Positions 1,454 to 64,000 of a DNA stretch of 64,000 nt are shown here, one piece after another. The DNA is taken from contig WFTL01000169.1 of NCBI GenBank assembly GCA_015485495.1, positions 1 through 64,000 of the forward strand, read 5' to 3'. The position numbers and the translations under genes were made by a program. The stretch comes from Planctomycetaceae bacterium (GTDB lineage Bacteria > Planctomycetota > Planctomycetia > Planctomycetales > Planctomycetaceae). Position 1 is the stretch's first letter. The number at the start of each line of letters is the position of its first letter. Under the pieces are notes generated by a model. That model ran no database searches. It was not told the DNA's origin and saw only the letters and a program-made list of their open reading frames with translations.

Positions 1454-1563
1454 GAGAAAATTCCTGCGGTCACGGGGAGAACCGGGAAGTCGGGGCGGCC
1501 GTTTCCGTCGATGTCCGGTGAACGGTGCGTCGGTGCCGTCCGGAAACGATGGCCACCGGTCGT

Positions 1564-3192
1564 TCAGACCGTGACCTCCGGCCGGGCCATCGCCTGGACC
1601 TCTGCCGCCGAATAACAGGTCACGCGGCCGCCATCGGTGAACTGCAGCAGGTCCTCCACCGGCTTTCCGGAAATCTTCGCTGCGGCGAACAGTCCCGTGG
1701 CCAGAGCGCCCAGAACGCCATGAGCCGACGTGGACTGACCGCAATGATACAGTCCGGAGATTTCTGTGCGGATCCGGGGAGCTGCCGGACCGATCTGAGA
1801 CAGCACTTTGGCGTGGCCATACAGATTGCCGCGATGGGCTGCCACATAAAACGCGTTCGTGAGCGGCGATCCCAGCTCGCACAGCTTCAGATGGTCCCGC
1901 AGATTCGGGATCACGATTTCCAGAGTCTCCAGCATGCGGCCGGTCAGGTGCTGTTTGAATGCGTGGTAATCGTCCGGACGCTCGCCGTACTGCGAGTCCT
2001 GCCAGCGGCGGAAGGCATCCCAGGAAACGAACGTGAACGCTTCCAGCGAATGCAGTCCCTGATGCATTTTGGTGGGATCTTTGCGGGTCGTGACCGTGAG
2101 AAACGCTCCGTCGAACGGTCCGTCACCGGTCAGATCGGAATGTTCTGCCTGGCGATAGACTGCCGACACATCGGGATCGGCCAGAATCCAGTAGTTTCCG
2201 GAATCCAGTCCCAGGGCATCCGCATCGATGTCGGCCGCCATAAACAGACTCAGCGCACTGACCGATGGTCGAAGCCGTTCGATCCGCTCTGCCAGGGCAT
2301 CGCTGAGGTGACTGCGGCCGACGAGCTGCAGGTAGGTCGTCCAGGCATCTGCGTTGGACAGGACGGCGGATGCCCGCAGTTCTTCACCCGATTCCAGTCG
2401 GACTCCGACGGCTCGTCGGCTGCCGCCCCGGCCTTCGACCAGAATCTGTGCCACACGCGTTCGTGTCCGGATTTCACCGCCCTGCTTTTTCAGACGGGCG
2501 ATCAGGGCACGCGGTATGGCTCCTCCACCGCCTTTCGGAAACCAGGCTCCCTCCCAGTAATGACTGTCGATGGCAACGTGCTGCAGAAACGGCACTTCTT
2601 CCGGAGACAGCCCGTGATCGCCGGCTCGTGATTCCAGAATCGCCTTCAGCCGCGGATGACGGACGTACCGATCGACAATCTGCGACAGAGGTCTGGTCCC
2701 GCGAAGTACGAAAGACGGCGCTCGGATCAGCAAAGCCAGGTGCCCGACCCGGCTGCGGGCCTGCATGGCAAGTGTGAGGCCTCGATCGACTTTCTTCATG
2801 AGCCGAAAATACCGAACGATGCCTCGGCGTTCTTCCGGAAACCGTTCGATGAGACGCTGCTGAAAGGTTTCGCAGCCGGAGGGAATATCGAACGTTTCAT
2901 CGGGGAAAACGATGTGGTCGTAGCCGTCCGGATTGAGTTCCATGAACTCCAGGTCTCCTCCGACCCCCAGGCCTTCGAAGAAAGAGCGCATCCGACCGCC
3001 TTCCTGAAGCTGCCCGATGTAGTGCACGCCCGGACTGAACCGATGTCCGTCCAGAGCGAACGTATGGCACCAGCCGCCCGGCAGATAGTGCTGTTCCAGC
3101 ACGAGAACCTTTCGTCCGGTGTTCGCCAGAGCCACAGCGCCGCCCAGGCCGCCGACTCCGGAACCGATCACAATGACATCCCATTCAGGCAT
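1564..3192 (-). CDS. FAD-dependent oxidoreductase, phytoene desaturase / carotenoid isomerase / retinol saturase-like
   Basis: MPEWDVIVIGSGVGGLGGAVALANTGRKVLVLEQHYLPGGWCHTFALDGHRFSPGVHYIG: dinucleotide-binding motif plus CrtISO-like N-terminus; C-terminal SGLYHCGQSTSAHGVLGALATGLFAA. Confidence 0.8.
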   Translation of the reverse strand: MPEWDVIVIGSGVGGLGGAVALANTGRKVLVLEQHYLPGGWCHTFALDGHRFSPGVHYIGQLQEGGRMRSFFEGLGVGGDLEFMELNPDGYDHIVFPDETFDIPSGCETFQQRLIERFPEERRGIVRYFRLMKKVDRGLTLAMQARSRVGHLALLIRAPSFVLRGTRPLSQIVDRYVRHPRLKAILESRAGDHGLSPEEVPFLQHVAIDSHYWEGAWFPKGGGGAIPRALIARLKKQGGEIRTRTRVAQILVEGRGGSRRAVGVRLESGEELRASAVLSNADAWTTYLQLVGRSHLSDALAERIERLRPSVSALSLFMAADIDADALGLDSGNYWILADPDVSAVYRQAEHSDLTGDGPFDGAFLTVTTRKDPTKMHQGLHSLEAFTFVSWDAFRRWQDSQYGERPDDYHAFKQHLTGRMLETLEIVIPNLRDHLKLCELGSPLTNAFYVAAHRGNLYGHAKVLSQIGPAAPRIRTEISGLYHCGQSTSAHGVLGALATGLFAAAKISGKPVEDLLQFTDGGRVTCYSAAEVQAMARPEVTV

Positions 3193-3383
3193 CAGTCCGC
3201 TCCGCTTTGGAAACCCGTCAGGAGTTGATTCGGATGCAGCGTCCCGCCGTCCGGGAATGAGGATACGGCGGGAGCATCGGAAAAGGAAACGCATCCGGCC
3301 GGCAGACCGGCATTGCCGGATGAACCACAGCAGACAGCACGGCCGCCTTGACGGGACGCCGGCCAGCCGGTTTTACGACTTCA

Positions 3384-4295
3384 TCAGGTGATGTCCCGAA
3401 GGCGGCGGGCAGCCGTTCGTACAGAATCTCGCTGCGTCGGTGCCAGACCGGAAAGGAACGGAACGATGGGGCCTGTTTCCGCAATTTCCGCCTCCCGCAC
3501 CGCTTCGTGAAGAACACGCACAGGGTGAATGGAGTTGCGAAGCTGTTCCAGCGGTTCGAACTGTCGACGAATCTGTTCGGCGCGGTCGTAATCGCGTTCC
3601 TGAATCGCCCGAAGCATCGCCTGCGACAGGGCCGGGTTGATGCAGACGCAGCCGGACGTGTATCCGACGCAGTGGAATGTCGTCAGGTGGATCAGCGCCG
3701 GCTGTTCTCCGATGCCGCTGCAGATGCGGTCGGGAGAGACCCGGTCCGTCAGTTCGCTGAGAAACCGATCGTCAGCCGGGTCCGGACGCACGATGGCATA
3801 CTTGATGAAGGACACCAGCCCGTCTTCCACCAGTTCGGCTGCACCGGAAACGGTCAGCGACCGATCGTCTTTCAGGTACAGCACCGCCGGGCGTTCGGCG
3901 CGTTCCACGAACCGGCGAAAACCGTTCTGGAAACCGGCCTCCGTGGCCATCGGAGACCGGGGCAGAACCATCACCGTGGGAAAGGATGTGTGCCGCAGAA
4001 TGTCGGCCTGATCCATCATCATCCCCCAGGAAGGACCGACCGAGGGAATGACGGTCGTGTCGGCGCCCACACCTGTTTCCAGCATCTCCAGAAGCTGCTC
4101 ATATTCGCTCAGCCTCACATGATGCAGGACCGCGTTTCCGCCATAAAGAAGCAGGGAAATGCCGGCGCCTTCCAGACGGCGGATGAGGCGTCTGTTCTGT
4201 TCCGGACAGACTGTCAGATCCGATCGTCGGGCCAGCGGCGGCACCGCGACGACGGATCGCCGGAAATGTTCACTGGTGACAGGCTGGATATTCAT
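3384..4295 (-). CDS. Dihydrodipicolinate synthase (DHDPS/NAL)-family protein
   Basis: MNIQPVTSEHFRRSVVAVPPLARRSDLTVCPEQNRRLIRRLEGAGISLLLYGGNAVLHHVRLSEYEQLLEML...PAVLYLKDDRS...LVSFIKYAIVRPDP; DHDPS-like arrangement with candidate Schiff-base Lys. Confidence 0.7.
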   Translation of the reverse strand: MNIQPVTSEHFRRSVVAVPPLARRSDLTVCPEQNRRLIRRLEGAGISLLLYGGNAVLHHVRLSEYEQLLEMLETGVGADTTVIPSVGPSWGMMMDQADILRHTSFPTVMVLPRSPMATEAGFQNGFRRFVERAERPAVLYLKDDRSLTVSGAAELVEDGLVSFIKYAIVRPDPADDRFLSELTDRVSPDRICSGIGEQPALIHLTTFHCVGYTSGCVCINPALSQAMLRAIQERDYDRAEQIRRQFEPLEQLRNSIHPVRVLHEAVREAEIAETGPIVPFLSGLAPTQRDSVRTAARRLRDIT

Positions 4296-18561: not shown

Positions 18562-19824
18562 TCAGCCTGCCAGGGGCAGGGACGCCGGGGACACTGCGGG
18601 ATCGTGCGGGTGATGAGATGTCGGCCAGCCGGACCGCAGACGTGCCCCGACATCGGACGCGGCTGTCTGCAGAAAGTGCATCAGTTCGCAGATGCGGTCG
18701 ACGTCCTCTGTTGAAACGGACACGCCGGCAGGAAGCTGCAGCACGCTCTGCAGAATGCGTTCCGTGTGCGGCAGCGGAACCGGCGTGTGACGCTGGTGGT
18801 GACAGTAGGGCGGACTGTGGTGACAGCCTGGCACGAAGTAGCACCGCGCGAAAATTCCTTCAGCCCGCAGCACCAGAAGCAGTTCGTCCCGGGTCAGACC
18901 GAAGGAGTCGGAATCTATCACAGCAGTCAGATACTGCCCGTTGCCGCCGTTGTCCGCATCGGCAGCGACGACCTGAATCCCGGGGCAGCCTTTCAGGCGA
19001 CGGAGGTAGTGCCGGCGAATGCGCCGCTGATGTTCCATCCGATGGGCTGCGGATTCCAGCGAAACCAGCCCGGCGGCGGCCGCCACTTCACTCATCTTGC
19101 CATTGATTCCAGGACCGTCGACCGACGTCAGTCCGGTGATTCCGAAGTTCCGCATCAGCCGCATCTGGTCCGCGAGTTCTGCATTCGGCGTGACGACAGC
19201 GCCCCCTTCGAAACTGTGAACAAATTTCGTGGCGTGAAAACTGAAAACAGAGGCGTCGCCGAATGCGGCCACAGACCGTCCACCAAAGCGGCAGCCGAAG
19301 GCATGGCATGCATCGAACAGCAGCTTCAGTCCGTACTCATCGGCCAGGTTTCGCAGACTGTCCGGACGGCCGGCATTCCCCCACAGATGGACGCCCAGAA
19401 TCGCGGATGTCCGGGGCGTGATGCACAAAGAGACGGATTCGGGATCGAGGGTGTGGGTCCGGGGATCGACATCCGCGAACACGGGTGTCAGGCCGATCCA
19501 GTCCAGAGCGTGGGGCGTGGCGATGAATGTCAGCGACGGAACAATCACCTCACCGGTCAGGCCACAGGCCCGGGCCATGATCTGCAGAGCCATGGTTCCG
19601 CTGCTCACGGCCACGCAGTGGAGTCCGTCGGTGTGTCGACGGATTTCCGTTTCGAATTCGCGGACAACCGGACCGTTGTTCGTCAGCCAGCCGCTTTCGA
19701 GCACCTGGCCGATTCGCTGCAGAATTCGATCGCGGCCGGTCAGATCGGGCTTTCCCACAACCAGCGGCTGCGGATACAGAGGCGATCCTCCGAAAATGGC
19801 GAGTCGTCCGGTGTGAACGGTCAC
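18562..19824 (-). CDS. DegT/DnrJ/EryC1/StrS-family PLP aminotransferase (copy 1)
   Basis: GTG start overlapping the preceding stop; VSSGTMALQIMARACGLTGEVIVPSLTFIATPHALDWIGLTPVFADVDP...FSFHATKFVHSFEGGAVVT with PLP lysine. Confidence 0.88.
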   Translation of the reverse strand: MTVHTGRLAIFGGSPLYPQPLVVGKPDLTGRDRILQRIGQVLESGWLTNNGPVVREFETEIRRHTDGLHCVAVSSGTMALQIMARACGLTGEVIVPSLTFIATPHALDWIGLTPVFADVDPRTHTLDPESVSLCITPRTSAILGVHLWGNAGRPDSLRNLADEYGLKLLFDACHAFGCRFGGRSVAAFGDASVFSFHATKFVHSFEGGAVVTPNAELADQMRLMRNFGITGLTSVDGPGINGKMSEVAAAAGLVSLESAAHRMEHQRRIRRHYLRRLKGCPGIQVVAADADNGGNGQYLTAVIDSDSFGLTRDELLLVLRAEGIFARCYFVPGCHHSPPYCHHQRHTPVPLPHTERILQSVLQLPAGVSVSTEDVDRICELMHFLQTAASDVGARLRSGWPTSHHPHDPAVSPASLPLAG

Positions 19825-20381
19825 TGCAGCACCTCCGGCGGTTCCGCCGTGCTGTGCCGGGGACACCATACCTGAACCGGATGCGGTGTGCAGACGGCAT
19901 AAGGAGCCGTCTGCACCGGCTGCTGCGTACTGCGGAACTGAAAATGTTTCATCTGGTGAGGGCGGTAGACGACTTCCTGCCACCCGACCGGCGGATTCCA
20001 CCGGGATGTCATGCCCGCCCAGAGCAGCGTTCCGGTAAGAAATGCGTGGACGTTGCGTCCATTGGGGAGTGGTCCGAGTCCGGCGCAGGCCTGCAGACGC
20101 CCCGGTTCGTCGACGTCGAATGAAACGGCTGTCAGCCCCACGTAGTCCGCCATGCCAATGCAGTCTTCCGCGGCAATGGCGAACACGTGATCGGATTCGT
20201 GACGCAGAAACACCCGCACCCGCCGGCCCCGCCAGGAAGCAACCGTTTCGGGATCACACAGACCGCGGCAGGCAACAGCCGCCGCATAGCGTCGGTTGAG
20301 CGATTCAATGGACCGGGCCATCGTCAGGCGGCGGGCAGGTCGGTCACAGACGGAACCGGAACGGATGGTGGTCGCGGTCAT
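19821..20381 (-). CDS. Conserved-looking protein of unknown function inside the glycan-modification cassette
   Basis: 186 aa; MTATTIRSGSVCDRPARRLTMARSIESLNRRYAAAVACRGLCDPETVASWRGRRVRVFLRHESDHVFAIAAEDCIGMADYVGLTAVSF. No family recognised; 4-bp overlap with the downstream DegT start. Confidence 0.65.
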   Translation of the reverse strand: MTATTIRSGSVCDRPARRLTMARSIESLNRRYAAAVACRGLCDPETVASWRGRRVRVFLRHESDHVFAIAAEDCIGMADYVGLTAVSFDVDEPGRLQACAGLGPLPNGRNVHAFLTGTLLWAGMTSRWNPPVGWQEVVYRPHQMKHFQFRSTQQPVQTAPYAVCTPHPVQVWCPRHSTAEPPEVLQ

Positions 20382-20383
20382 GA

Positions 20384-22453
20384 TCAGAACTCCCGGTCGG
20401 TGTGAACAGAACACGTTGTTTGTTTCAGAAGCTCCGTGCAGATGTGTTCCAGCGATCGCGTAAAGCGTACGCCGTCACAGACGGTACGCTGCATGGCCGG
20501 CCGAATGGCGTGCCGGAGCGTCTTCAGACGCTCCGGGTCGGCAGCCAGTTCGGTCATCAGCTTCACATATTCGTCCGGTGAGGCGGCCGTCAGTTCCTCC
20601 AGGTCCAGCTCATGCAGAAGCGAAGCCGTCGCGCGCGTCGCGGGAGTGCTGCCGAGAACGGTGGGAATGGGGACCCCCATCCACATCGATTCATAGGCGG
20701 TGGTTCCGCTTCCCCACGGGAAGACGTCCAGCAGAAGATCGATCCGGTCATAAAGACGCAGATGGTCTTCGGGAATGTCTGAACAGAACTCGATCCGGTC
20801 CGCATCCACCCCGACAGCTTCCAGACGGTTCTGCAGTGTCGAGCGGGTGGAATCGTTCGCGAGGACATCGCGAATCACAAGAAGTCGGCTGTCGGGAATC
20901 GATTCCAGAACACGGGCCCACAGTTTCAGGCAGGTGTCCGACAGTTTTTCCAGCCGATGAGTGGATCCCAGAGTGATGTTTCCGTTTCGAAGGGCCGGCG
21001 GATCCGCGATCGGGAGGGCCGAAGGGGCCTCGAAACAGCAGGCACCATGGGGCAGGCAGACGAGCCGTTCGGTGAACAGCGATGCACCACCGTCCGGAAT
21101 GCGGACGGCGTCGCTCAGGAAGGCATCGATCCGCGTCAGACCGGTGGTGCCGGGATATCCCAAAAAGGACATCTGCAGAGGAGCCGGGCGGGCAGCAAAA
21201 ACCGGCAGCCGATTGCCGGCCGTGTGTCCGGCCAGATCGATGAGAACGTCGATCTCATCGCGACGAATGAGGGCGGCCAGTTCGGAATCCGACAGGTGCG
21301 GCGTGACATGCCATCCGGTGCACAGGCCGGCGATTTCCTGGCTGACAGAATCCGGCGTGCAGTTGGCGTAGCAGTAGATATCGAATGAACGGCGGTCGTG
21401 ACTGCGGAGAATCGGCCACACGAAACGCATCGTGGCGTGATTGCGCAGGTCGGGAGACACATAGCCGATTCGGATCCGGTCATGTGTGTAACGCACCGGA
21501 GGCAGAACAGAGATACGCGCCTCGATTTCCCGCCCCCATTCGGCATGCCGTTTGAAAACGTCGTGCGGCGACAAATGAGGAGCCAGACTGGAACAGTACA
21601 GCCGGTTGCTCGAGAAACGACTGCCCGGACCGTCGAGATGACAGGCCAGATCGAACGCCTCCAAAGCCTCTTTCCAGGCATGTCGCATCTGCAGGGCGCG
21701 GCCGAGACCATTGAGTGCCAGGGCAGACTGCGGATCGAGATTCAGCGCCCGCTGGAAGTCGGTGATCGCCTGCATGTGGTCGCCCAGATCCAGGAGCACG
21801 TTGCCCCGGTTGACCCAGATCTGAGGTATGTCGGGACTGATCTTCGCGGCTCGGTCCAGTTCAAGGAGTGCCCGCTCCGGCTGCCGCAGTTCTCTGAGTG
21901 TTCCGCCGAGATTCAGACGCGCCTGGCACGACTGCGGATCCAGTTCCACCGCCGTTTCGAGAGCGGCGGCCGCTTCCTGAAACCGGCTGCATTCGTACAG
22001 AATGGCGCCCAGATTGCAGTGGGCATCGGCACACAAAGGATCATCGTTCAGGATGTCCTGCAGAATGTCGATCGCTTCTTCGTACCGCCCCTGACGGGCC
22101 AGTGCCGTGGCCAGATGCTGCCGGGCCCTTTTGTTTTTTCGTCCGGAAGCCAGAGAGCGACGGGCGGCGGATTCTGCTTCTTCAGGCCGGCCGGCAGACA
22201 GCAGGACCGAGGCGAGATTGGAAAGGTAGTCCGGGTCTTCCGGCTGAAGTTCCAGGGCTTTGAGTATCAGAGTTTCCGCATCGCGGAAGGCGCCCCGCTG
22301 CCACGCAATCAGTCCGGAAAGGTGCCACGCATCAGCGACTGTGGGATCCGTTTTCAGAATCGAGGCATAAACACCGGCGGCTGACGCAAGGTCTCCGGAC
22401 CGGTGGCGGGAGATGGCGGAATGGAGCTGTTGCTGGACTGCGGCCGCGTTCAC
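20384..22453 (-). CDS. TPR-repeat protein with GT41 (O-GlcNAc transferase / SPINDLY-type) catalytic domain
   Basis: GTG start; multiple TPRs (e.g. ADAHCNLGAILYECSRFQEAAAALETAVELDPQ) followed by RIGYVSPDLRNHATMRFVWPILRSHD, DVLIDLAGHTAGNRLPVFAARPAPLQMSFLGYPGTTGL, LGSTHRLEKLSDTCLKLWARVLESIPDSRLL, LLLDVFPWGSGTTAYESMWMGVPIPTVLG. Confidence 0.9.
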   Translation of the reverse strand: MNAAAVQQQLHSAISRHRSGDLASAAGVYASILKTDPTVADAWHLSGLIAWQRGAFRDAETLILKALELQPEDPDYLSNLASVLLSAGRPEEAESAARRSLASGRKNKRARQHLATALARQGRYEEAIDILQDILNDDPLCADAHCNLGAILYECSRFQEAAAALETAVELDPQSCQARLNLGGTLRELRQPERALLELDRAAKISPDIPQIWVNRGNVLLDLGDHMQAITDFQRALNLDPQSALALNGLGRALQMRHAWKEALEAFDLACHLDGPGSRFSSNRLYCSSLAPHLSPHDVFKRHAEWGREIEARISVLPPVRYTHDRIRIGYVSPDLRNHATMRFVWPILRSHDRRSFDIYCYANCTPDSVSQEIAGLCTGWHVTPHLSDSELAALIRRDEIDVLIDLAGHTAGNRLPVFAARPAPLQMSFLGYPGTTGLTRIDAFLSDAVRIPDGGASLFTERLVCLPHGACCFEAPSALPIADPPALRNGNITLGSTHRLEKLSDTCLKLWARVLESIPDSRLLVIRDVLANDSTRSTLQNRLEAVGVDADRIEFCSDIPEDHLRLYDRIDLLLDVFPWGSGTTAYESMWMGVPIPTVLGSTPATRATASLLHELDLEELTAASPDEYVKLMTELAADPERLKTLRHAIRPAMQRTVCDGVRFTRSLEHICTELLKQTTCSVHTDREF

Positions 22454-22828
22454 TGGTCGTCCCTGACAGGCTGCAGGTTCCGGAAAAACCGGCCGCTTCT
22501 GCGTCCGGCGTGGCCTGATGCCTCCCATCCTTCATCGTCGCCGAACGGAAAAGTCGTCCCATGTTTCCTGAAAAGGTGGGGATTTCCCGAAGGAAACGCA
22601 GATCGTGAGTGGCCCTTGAAAACCATTCTGCGGAACTTCGTGCTCGCAGTGGCTGTGCAGGGACAAACAGCAGTCCGCGGACCGCCCCTCGGGCGGCGCC
22701 CGCGCACACAGATGCAGATTCCGCATCTATGCGATCATGAAATCGTTCCGAAGAGTGTCCTTTGTGGAGTGCCTCCGCGGAATGGTCAGACGGGGCCATC
22801 AGGTACCGTCTGTTGAGGACAGGTCGGA

Positions 22829-61549: not shown

Positions 61550-62797
61550 GTGACCGGTCGCAGCGCAATCTCCCCCTTTTTTCACCAGCTCCGCATGACT
61601 GATTCGCTGACTGCCTGTGACATCCGGTGGCCTGCCTGGCCCGTTTTCGATCAGACCGAAGAAACGGCTCTGCTGGACGTTCTCCGGTCGGGAAAATGGT
61701 GGTTCGGAGAACGCGTCCGCCGATTCGAAGCCGAATATGCCGCGTTCCAGGGATCCCGCTACGCGGTCACCTGCACCAACGGCACGACGGCTCTGGAAAT
61801 GGCTCTGCGGGCTCTGGGTGTTGTCGAAGGCGATGAAGTCATCGTCCCCTGCTACAGCTTCATCGCCACCGCCAGTGCGGTGGTGACCGTGGGAGCCGTC
61901 CCGGTGTTCGCGGATATCTGCCCGGACTCCCTGTGCATCGACCCGGACGACGTGGAACGCAAAATCACGGACCGGACGAAGGCCGTGATCCCCGTCCACG
62001 TGGCCGGTCTCATCGCTGACATGGACCGCCTGCAGAAGATTGCCGAAGCACATGATCTGGTTCTGCTGGAAGATGCAGCGCACGCCTGGGGCAGCCAGCT
62101 GGACGGCCGCGGCGCCGGCACGCTCAGCCGGGCCGGAACGTTCAGCTTTCAGGAAACCAAGAACATCACGGCGGGTGAAGGCGGCATTCTCGTCACCGAC
62201 AGCGAAGAACTGGCGGATCTGTGCCGCAGTTTTACGCACTGCGGACGAGCGAAACGTTCGCAGTGGTACGACCACGACTACCTGGGCAGCAATCTGAGAA
62301 TGACAGAATTTCAGGCGGCCATCCTGAGCTGCCAGCTGGCCAGACTGAGCGACCAGATCGCCGTACGGGACGCCAATGCCGCTCGAATCAGCCACATCCT
62401 TTCCGGGCTGGACCTGATTCTTCCTCCGCCTGCTCCGCGAATGACCCGACGCAGCTGGCACATTTATATTTTTCGTCTGGGGCCGGAACGAGAACCGGTG
62501 CGGGATCGCATCGTGGAACGACTGAATCAGGCCGGTGTTCCGGTTCTGGCCGGCTGGTATCGGCCGCTGTACCGCAACGTCGTGTTTCAGCGTGCCCACC
62601 AGGGACCGCCCCACGGCATCCGTTCTCCTCTGGCCGCACGAGGTGTCGATTACCGGACGACCGACTGTCCGGTCTGCGAACAGGTCTGTCGGGATGCCGT
62701 GTGGATTCCGCAGAATGTGCTGCTGGCGGATTCCGGCGATGTGGAACGGGCGGCCCGCATCATTCGCACCGTGATCGAACAGGAAAGCGGCAGATAA
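61550..62797 (+). CDS. DegT/DnrJ/EryC1/StrS-family PLP aminotransferase (copy 2)
   Basis: CTNGTTALEMALRALGVVEGDEVIVPCYSFIATASAVVTVGAVPVFADICPDSLCIDPDDVERKITDRTKAVIPVHVAG...TFSFQETKNITAGEGGILVT. Confidence 0.9.
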   Translation: MTGRSAISPFFHQLRMTDSLTACDIRWPAWPVFDQTEETALLDVLRSGKWWFGERVRRFEAEYAAFQGSRYAVTCTNGTTALEMALRALGVVEGDEVIVPCYSFIATASAVVTVGAVPVFADICPDSLCIDPDDVERKITDRTKAVIPVHVAGLIADMDRLQKIAEAHDLVLLEDAAHAWGSQLDGRGAGTLSRAGTFSFQETKNITAGEGGILVTDSEELADLCRSFTHCGRAKRSQWYDHDYLGSNLRMTEFQAAILSCQLARLSDQIAVRDANAARISHILSGLDLILPPPAPRMTRRSWHIYIFRLGPEREPVRDRIVERLNQAGVPVLAGWYRPLYRNVVFQRAHQGPPHGIRSPLAARGVDYRTTDCPVCEQVCRDAVWIPQNVLLADSGDVERAARIIRTVIEQESGR

Positions 62798-64000
62798 GTG
62801 GCTGTCACAGAAGATTTTTTCGCCGGCGTCATCGAAGGGTTTTACGGCCGCCCGTGGTCTCAGGAGCAGCGCCGAATCCTGCTGCCCCGGATGGCTTCCT
62901 GGGGACTGAATACGTACTTCTACTGCCCCAAGGACGATCTGAAACATCGGGCCATCTGGCGGCAGCCGTACGATGACCAGGAACTGGCGAGACTGGAGGA
63001 ACTCATACGTCTCTGTGAACACCACGGACTGCGATTCATCTATGGACTCAGTCCCGGACTGGACATCGAATTCTCGCGCCCCGAAGAATCTCAGGCCATT
63101 CTGAACCGCCTGAAACAGCTCATGGATGTCGGTGCCCGGCATTTCGCTCTGCTGTTCGACGATCTTCCCGGACGGCTGTCGGAAGCCGACGAGACAGCCT
63201 TCGATTCTCTGGCCCAGGCTCAGTGCGCGGTCACGCAGACTGTGTTCGAATGGCTGCGGGAAAAGATTCCCGACAGCCGGATGCTTTTCTGTCCGACCCC
63301 TTACTGCGATCGCATGGATCGCTGGAACCTGGGGGGAGCCGGATACCTGGACGACATCGGCCGCTTTCTTCCCCAGGGAATCGACTGCCTGTGGACCGGT
63401 CCGGAAATCGTGTCCCACCGAATCGATGCGGAATCGATCCGGGCCCTGACGAAACGGATCGGCCGGGCTCCGGTCATCTGGGACAACCTGCACGCAAACG
63501 ATTACGACCTGCGCCGCGTCTACTGCGGACCGTACAGCGGCCGACCGGCCGACACGATTCGCAGCGTGGCGGGCATCATGGCCAATGCCAACAACGAATT
63601 CGAACTGAACTACGTGCCGTTCCGCACCATGGCCCGGTGTCTGAACAGCCCCGATGACTACGAACCCCGAGCCGCCTTTGTGGAGGCGATCCGCGAATGG
63701 CATACACACTACGGTTCGGTCCGACGGGAACTGTCGGTGGACGACCTGCAGCTTCTGGCCGACTGTTATTATCTGCCGGCGACCGAAGGCGAGGAAGCTG
63801 TGGAACTGAAGGAGCTGGTTCGACAGCTCCTTCAGACGCCTCCGGACACCTGGAAGGACGGCTGGAAACGTTTTCTCGACTGGCACAGGCGAATCGAATG
63901 CCTCTTCGAAACTCTCACGGAACTGCACGACCGGGAGCTGTTCTATGCGTGGAGTCGCCGGGTGTGGGAACTGAGAGAAGAGATGGATCTCATTCGTGAT
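62798..64000 (+). CDS. GH84 beta-N-acetylglucosaminidase (O-GlcNAcase-like), incomplete at window end
   Basis: GTG at 62798 directly abuts the upstream TAA; VAVTEDFFAGVIEGFYGRPWSQEQRRILLPRMASWGLNTYFYCPKDDLKHRAIWR...FIYGLSPGLDIEFSRPEE...HFALLFDDLPG...FCPTPYC...DCLWTGPEIVSHRI...RAPVIWDNLHANDYDLRRVYCGPYSGR. No stop before 64000, so it is absent from the ORF track. Confidence 0.92.
   Translation, partial: MAVTEDFFAGVIEGFYGRPWSQEQRRILLPRMASWGLNTYFYCPKDDLKHRAIWRQPYDDQELARLEELIRLCEHHGLRFIYGLSPGLDIEFSRPEESQAILNRLKQLMDVGARHFALLFDDLPGRLSEADETAFDSLAQAQCAVTQTVFEWLREKIPDSRMLFCPTPYCDRMDRWNLGGAGYLDDIGRFLPQGIDCLWTGPEIVSHRIDAESIRALTKRIGRAPVIWDNLHANDYDLRRVYCGPYSGRPADTIRSVAGIMANANNEFELNYVPFRTMARCLNSPDDYEPRAAFVEAIREWHTHYGSVRRELSVDDLQLLADCYYLPATEGEEAVELKELVRQLLQTPPDTWKDGWKRFLDWHRRIECLFETLTELHDRELFYAWSRRVWELREEMDLIRD

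Follow-up and report, generated by a model that had tools for sequence, protein, structure and literature searches.

A planctomycete GH84 gene related to animal O-GlcNAcase forms a split OGA-type pair with a GNAT acetyltransferase gene

The window analysed here, the first 64,000 nucleotides of a 92,022-bp contig (WFTL01000169.1) from a Planctomycetaceae bacterium, ends inside an OGA-type gene whose ORF and Pfam match indicate a GH84 TIM barrel followed by a helical stalk (62798..64000 in the window, + strand). Reading past position 64000, as had been advised with the original prediction, completes the gene, which encodes 455 amino acids and reaches its stop at contig position 64165; it was missing from the list of closed ORFs because it overruns the end of the window. 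The ORF, the coordinates and the motifs first quoted for it are all present in the sequence, and its assignment to the GH84 family, as a predicted O-GlcNAcase, is borne out by the retained catalytic residues and by a PF07555 profile score of 258-260 bits, where the cut-off is 25, which excludes a chance match. A profile search of the source genome (4.67 Mb, 98% complete) found this ORF to be its sole GH84.

Translation starts at a GTG codon at 62798. Frame reading places an in-frame TAA, the stop codon of the upstream gene, immediately 5' of this codon (62795..62797, + strand), which excludes an earlier start and any signal peptide that it might have supplied. Neither was any secretion signal seen in a family-wide hydropathy scan of OGA-type GH84 relatives. 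The early proposal of a signal-less enzyme thus holds, and from the lack of any signal the protein is predicted to be cytoplasmic. The upstream gene encodes a DegT/DnrJ/EryC1/StrS sugar aminotransferase (61550..62797, + strand; PF01041, 355 bits; best PDB matches AHBA synthase and 2-deoxy-scyllo-inosose aminotransferases) that abuts the GH84 start with zero bases between, such that the two genes are likely to belong to one transcription unit. The next gene downstream, outside the window at contig positions 64310-64969 (+ strand), encodes a 219-amino acid GNAT protein which PDB sequence matches relate to OgpAT; it is separated from GH84 by 144 nucleotides, and two in-frame stops stand between the two genes.

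Alignment to human OGA places the catalytic Asp pair of the window GH84 at D121-D122 (63158..63163, + strand; human D174-D175), and this pair is invariant in 22 aligned rows. The human GlcNAc site comprises G67, K98, D174, N280, D285 and N313 (PMC10636738), all of which are kept, the equivalents of the non-catalytic residues being G14, K45, N230, D235 and N263; the counterparts of human Y219 and W278 are likewise kept, and 131 of 280 aligned columns are identical. An AlphaFold2 model (mean pLDDT 90.6) retrieved OgOGA (2xsa) as its best Foldseek match with a TM score of 0.90, followed by human OGA at about 0.81-0.87 over barrel and stalk together, and, below both, TtOGA at 0.75-0.78. The C-terminal helical stalk is conserved, as judged from sequence matches to it and from the fit of the model to OgOGA.

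Sequence comparison with proteins of known structure places the window GH84 closer to animal OGA (human, 327 bits; Trichoplax, 285 bits) and OgOGA (303 bits) than to TtOGA (197 bits) or the secreted enzymes BtGH84 (135 bits) and NagJ (about 120 bits); the greater likeness to animal OGA than to the secreted enzymes, proposed from the motifs, is thereby confirmed. When each GTDB species was represented by a single genome, a scan yielded at least 80 GH84 loci. Among the matches listed, about 54 are related to the window protein with 38-52% identity, almost all of them complete in length; these come mostly from Verrucomicrobiota, with some from Planctomycetota, Acidobacteriota, Alphaproteobacteria and Deinococcota. 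Maximum-likelihood trees rooted on a distant GH84 group and including two eukaryotic sequences, human and Trichoplax OGA, unite the relatives, OgOGA among them, in one clade with the animal enzymes apart from the root group (support 98 and 100/98). The window GH84 is nested deep in the bacterial part, its sisters being loci L108 and L110 (support 100/99) from genomes of the same class as the Planctomycetia MAG carrying locus L037. Forcing it together with animal OGA was rejected by the AU test (p-AU 0.0025), while a topology in which the animal enzymes branch beside all of the bacterial ones, rather than among them, was not rejected (p 0.071). The likeness of the window GH84 to animal OGA therefore reflects membership of one clade rather than a eukaryotic gene. 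The phylogeny thus upholds the expected grouping with OgOGA and animal OGA apart from distant GH84s, BtGH84 and NagJ lying outside the trees and being compared by score only, while lending no support to the view that the gene is specially eukaryote-like.

The C-terminal HAT-like domain that had been suggested as something to look for is present as the separate downstream gene. The best PDB matches of the GNAT protein are OgpAT (3zj0, 151 bits) and SsAT (127 bits), followed by the HAT domain of Trichoplax OGA (88 bits) and human OGA (74 bits). Its residues D136, N174 and G143/G145/G147, invariant in 22 rows, correspond to Asp137, Asn175 and the P-loop glycines of OgpAT, where Asp137, Asn175 and the P-loop bind acetyl-CoA (PMC3814719); in animal OGA, acetyl-CoA binding has been lost (PMC3814719, PMC12494797). 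With its acetyl-CoA residues kept, this GNAT is a live-looking equivalent of the pseudo-HAT found in animals. In this genome the barrel with its stalk and the HAT-like part are encoded by two genes instead of forming one polypeptide, and the pair is a split OGA of a kind known from Oceanicola granulosus, where a 2013 study of the OgOGA-OgpAT operon already drew the comparison with the way the domains follow one another in human OGA (Rao et al. 2013, PMC3814719).

This pairing is general in the bacterial OGA-type family, a finding new to this study: among the matches listed, a GNAT gene lies directly downstream of GH84, or is fused to it, in 43 of 49 assessable loci, with a median gap of 7 nucleotides and 1-nucleotide overlaps common among paired loci. 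The GNAT tree broadly parallels that of GH84, many of its branches being weak. We note separately that in five actinomycetotal and chloroflexotal loci (L059, L061, L063, L073 and L083) an OgpAT-like GNAT gene is found on the opposite strand, at most about 5 kb from a more distant GH84.

Three loci of a planctomycete subclade (support 100/99) encode GH84 and GNAT in one uninterrupted ORF, with the order GH84, stalk, GNAT: L037 (3495-5489), L045 (5983-8025) and, on the reverse strand, L107 (about 1492-3507). In a further member of this subclade, L053, the gene is cut at the contig end. The 665-amino acid fusion of L037 aligns with residues 63-332 and 552-916 of human OGA, thus presenting GH84, stalk and pHAT in the human sequence of domains but with the long disordered insert missing, and the acetyl-CoA site is largely intact in the planctomycete single-chain proteins. 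AlphaFold2 modelled the fusion well over GH84 and stalk but poorly over the GNAT part (pLDDT about 30-65), since just two alignment rows cover the latter. On the GH84 tree, a clade uniting the fused planctomycete GH84s with those of animals was rejected (p-AU 0.003), and with it a common origin of the two sets of fusions; those of planctomycetes have apparently arisen independently of animal OGA, a point we believe to be new, no earlier report of a bacterial GH84-GNAT fusion having been found among open-licence papers. A more tentative and rather doubtful extension is that animal OGA itself derives from a bacterial sugar-utilisation pair in which GH84 and a functional GNAT served a single pathway, with at least two independent fusions, one in planctomycetes and one in the ancestor of animal OGA, and with decay of the GNAT to a pseudo-HAT on the animal side only. 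Were this so, the planctomycete fusions would be bifunctional hydrolase-acetyltransferases revealing the original job of the OGA C-terminal domain, for instance the N-acetylation of glucosaminides to make them cleavable by the substrate-assisted GH84.

The neighbours of the pair are suggestive of sugar metabolism, and of a bacterial version that mostly processes sugars from outside. Foremost among them, and likewise a new finding, are sugar importers, for which 33 of 55 clusters among the matches listed carry a gene: a lactose/cellobiose-family PTS EIIC in 24 and an ABC sugar importer in nine, including that of O. granulosus. In the other 22 loci, several of them on short contigs, no transporter was found within reach. 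The 24 EIIC loci (L008, L010, L013, L014 and L018-L025 among them) have EIIC adjoining the GH84-GNAT pair; no EIIA or EIIB family was found among their conserved neighbours, and this EIIC may accordingly be a stand-alone sugar transporter. Also among the matches listed, SIS sugar-isomerase genes occur in eight of 55 loci and GntR/UTRA regulators in five. By-eye inspection of the translation in planctomycete locus L095 shows an OgpAT-type GNAT fused to a SIS-like domain (1974-4145, + strand) right after ABC sugar permeases and GH84, and L096/L104 may be arranged similarly. The source genome itself has a SIS match elsewhere, adjoining a ROK-kinase-like ORF, which on inspection by eye we judged uninformative.

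Taken with these contexts, the reading we prefer, at a probability of roughly 0.6, is that the window gene encodes the hydrolase of a cytoplasmic, two-gene OGA-type pair engaged in the cleavage of small intracellular beta-N-acetylglucosaminides rather than in regulatory O-GlcNAc removal. The barrel and stalk would cleave terminal beta-linked GlcNAc by a substrate-assisted mechanism through D121/D122, acting on small intracellular compounds (glycosides brought in from outside, glycopeptides or breakdown products, for example), and the GNAT would acetylate an amino sugar of the same pathway. The activity and substrate of the GH84 and the role of the GNAT are in this scheme inferred. A search of the source genome returned no EIIC and no NagA match, and no transporter adjoins its GH84-GNAT pair; the uptake role is therefore borrowed from relatives.

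The original prediction had the enzyme acting on O-GlcNAc-modified proteins of its own cell, in which case it would oppose the one GT41 of the genome, a TPR-GT41 of the OGT family identified by Pfam and PDB matches 40 kb from GH84 (20384-22528, - strand). This we hold to be improbable, if the more credible of the alternatives. The GT41 protein does match human OGT (266 bits) and TtOGT (246 bits), but its best PDB match is SPINDLY (297 bits), a plant O-fucosyltransferase which the window protein resembles more than it does OGT. GT41 is present in nine of 45 and four of six genomes carrying OGA-type GH84 (two sets) and in 29 of 59 sampled relatives devoid of it, groups which differ in phylum and in MAG completeness, many being incomplete MAGs; on these counts there is no positive association between the two genes beyond background, and GT41 was dropped as an argument for a dedicated partnership. 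The lack of a signal peptide would suit such a role, as would the presence of the stalk, which in human OGA gives the substrate cleft its shape, and the ability of TtOGA, another signal-less GH84, to strip O-GlcNAc from hTab1 in vitro (PMC4683255). In Thermobaculum terrenum, however, the first bacterium reported with both OGA and OGT parts, neither O-GlcNAc proteins nor in vitro OGT activity were detectable (PMC4683255). Given the importer context and the absence of a GT41 association, a role in stripping endogenous proteins of O-GlcNAc is conceivable but less favoured, and an intracellular beta-GlcNAc-glycosidase serving sugar uptake or salvage fits better. Two observations on neighbouring and related GT41 genes may be added: a second DegT aminotransferase gene (18562-20001, - strand) lies near the window GT41, and a planctomycete of the same family (G025) has clusters of several TPR-GT41 genes on each of two contigs (C46 and C18).

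Slightly less probable still is an amino-sugar pathway in which an amino sugar produced by the DegT protein is N-acetylated by the GNAT, with an N-acetylamino glycoside of the pathway as the substrate cleaved by GH84. Pairs of DegT and GNAT genes are typical of amino-sugar biosynthesis. Consistent with such a pathway, the gene directly adjoins GH84 in the window, recurs upstream of it in planctomycete G811 (L108) and is found near the pair in eight further loci; against it, DegT accompanies the pair in just nine of 55 loci among the matches listed, on either side, and genes of this family are common, as illustrated by the second copy in the window.

That the gene was recently acquired or is a contaminant devoid of stable function is very improbable, for while 59 sampled relatives, among them two congeners, have neither GH84 nor GNAT, the GC content (0.603/0.626) and GC3 (0.71) of the pair match the contig, the catalytic residues are all intact and the GH84 groups with L108 and L110 in a distinct subclade. 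On this native composition, a contaminating or foreign contig was rejected. OGA-type GH84 and GNAT occur together in three of 399 sampled genomes of the phylum (the source genome, G207 and G234), and the simplest reading is patchy inheritance, with the pair probably acquired by transfer.

What the C-terminal pseudo-acetyltransferase of OGA does, and where it came from, are standing questions in the O-GlcNAc field. The finding that bacterial OGA-type GH84s are regularly partnered by a GNAT whose acetyl-CoA residues are intact, sometimes in one chain as in animals and often next to sugar importers, makes a concrete test possible, namely the identification of what this GNAT acetylates. The same finding calls for caution, in that a signal-less bacterial GH84 is not always evidence of bacterial O-GlcNAc signalling.

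Among known systems, the secreted BtGH84 of Bacteroides and NagJ of clostridia share the family and the catalytic Asp pair with the window GH84 but score only about 120-135 bits against it, and the window protein has no signal and falls outside the distant root group. TtOGA of T. terrenum (5diy; PMC4683255) is likewise an intracellular bacterial GH84 from a genome with GT41, yet is more distant in both sequence and fold, and was reported to have no HAT domain (PMC4683255), whereas the window genome has a GNAT gene downstream. Animal OGA (human OGA/MGEA5; Trichoplax) shares the barrel, the stalk, the active-site residues and a homologous C-terminal acetyltransferase-like domain; the bacterial version differs in being split in two genes, in its live-looking GNAT and in having no long disordered insert, and the animal enzymes are not the sister of the window GH84. 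OgOGA/OgpAT of O. granulosus (PMC3814719) has, like the pair studied here, two adjacent separate genes in the same order, with GH84 matching over residues 8-445, the acetyl-CoA residues of the GNAT kept and the GH84s in the same clade. The two GH84s are 37-38% identical and come from different phyla, and while the O. granulosus locus (L055) has GntR and SIS genes together with an ABC importer, the pair studied here is preceded by the DegT aminotransferase instead.
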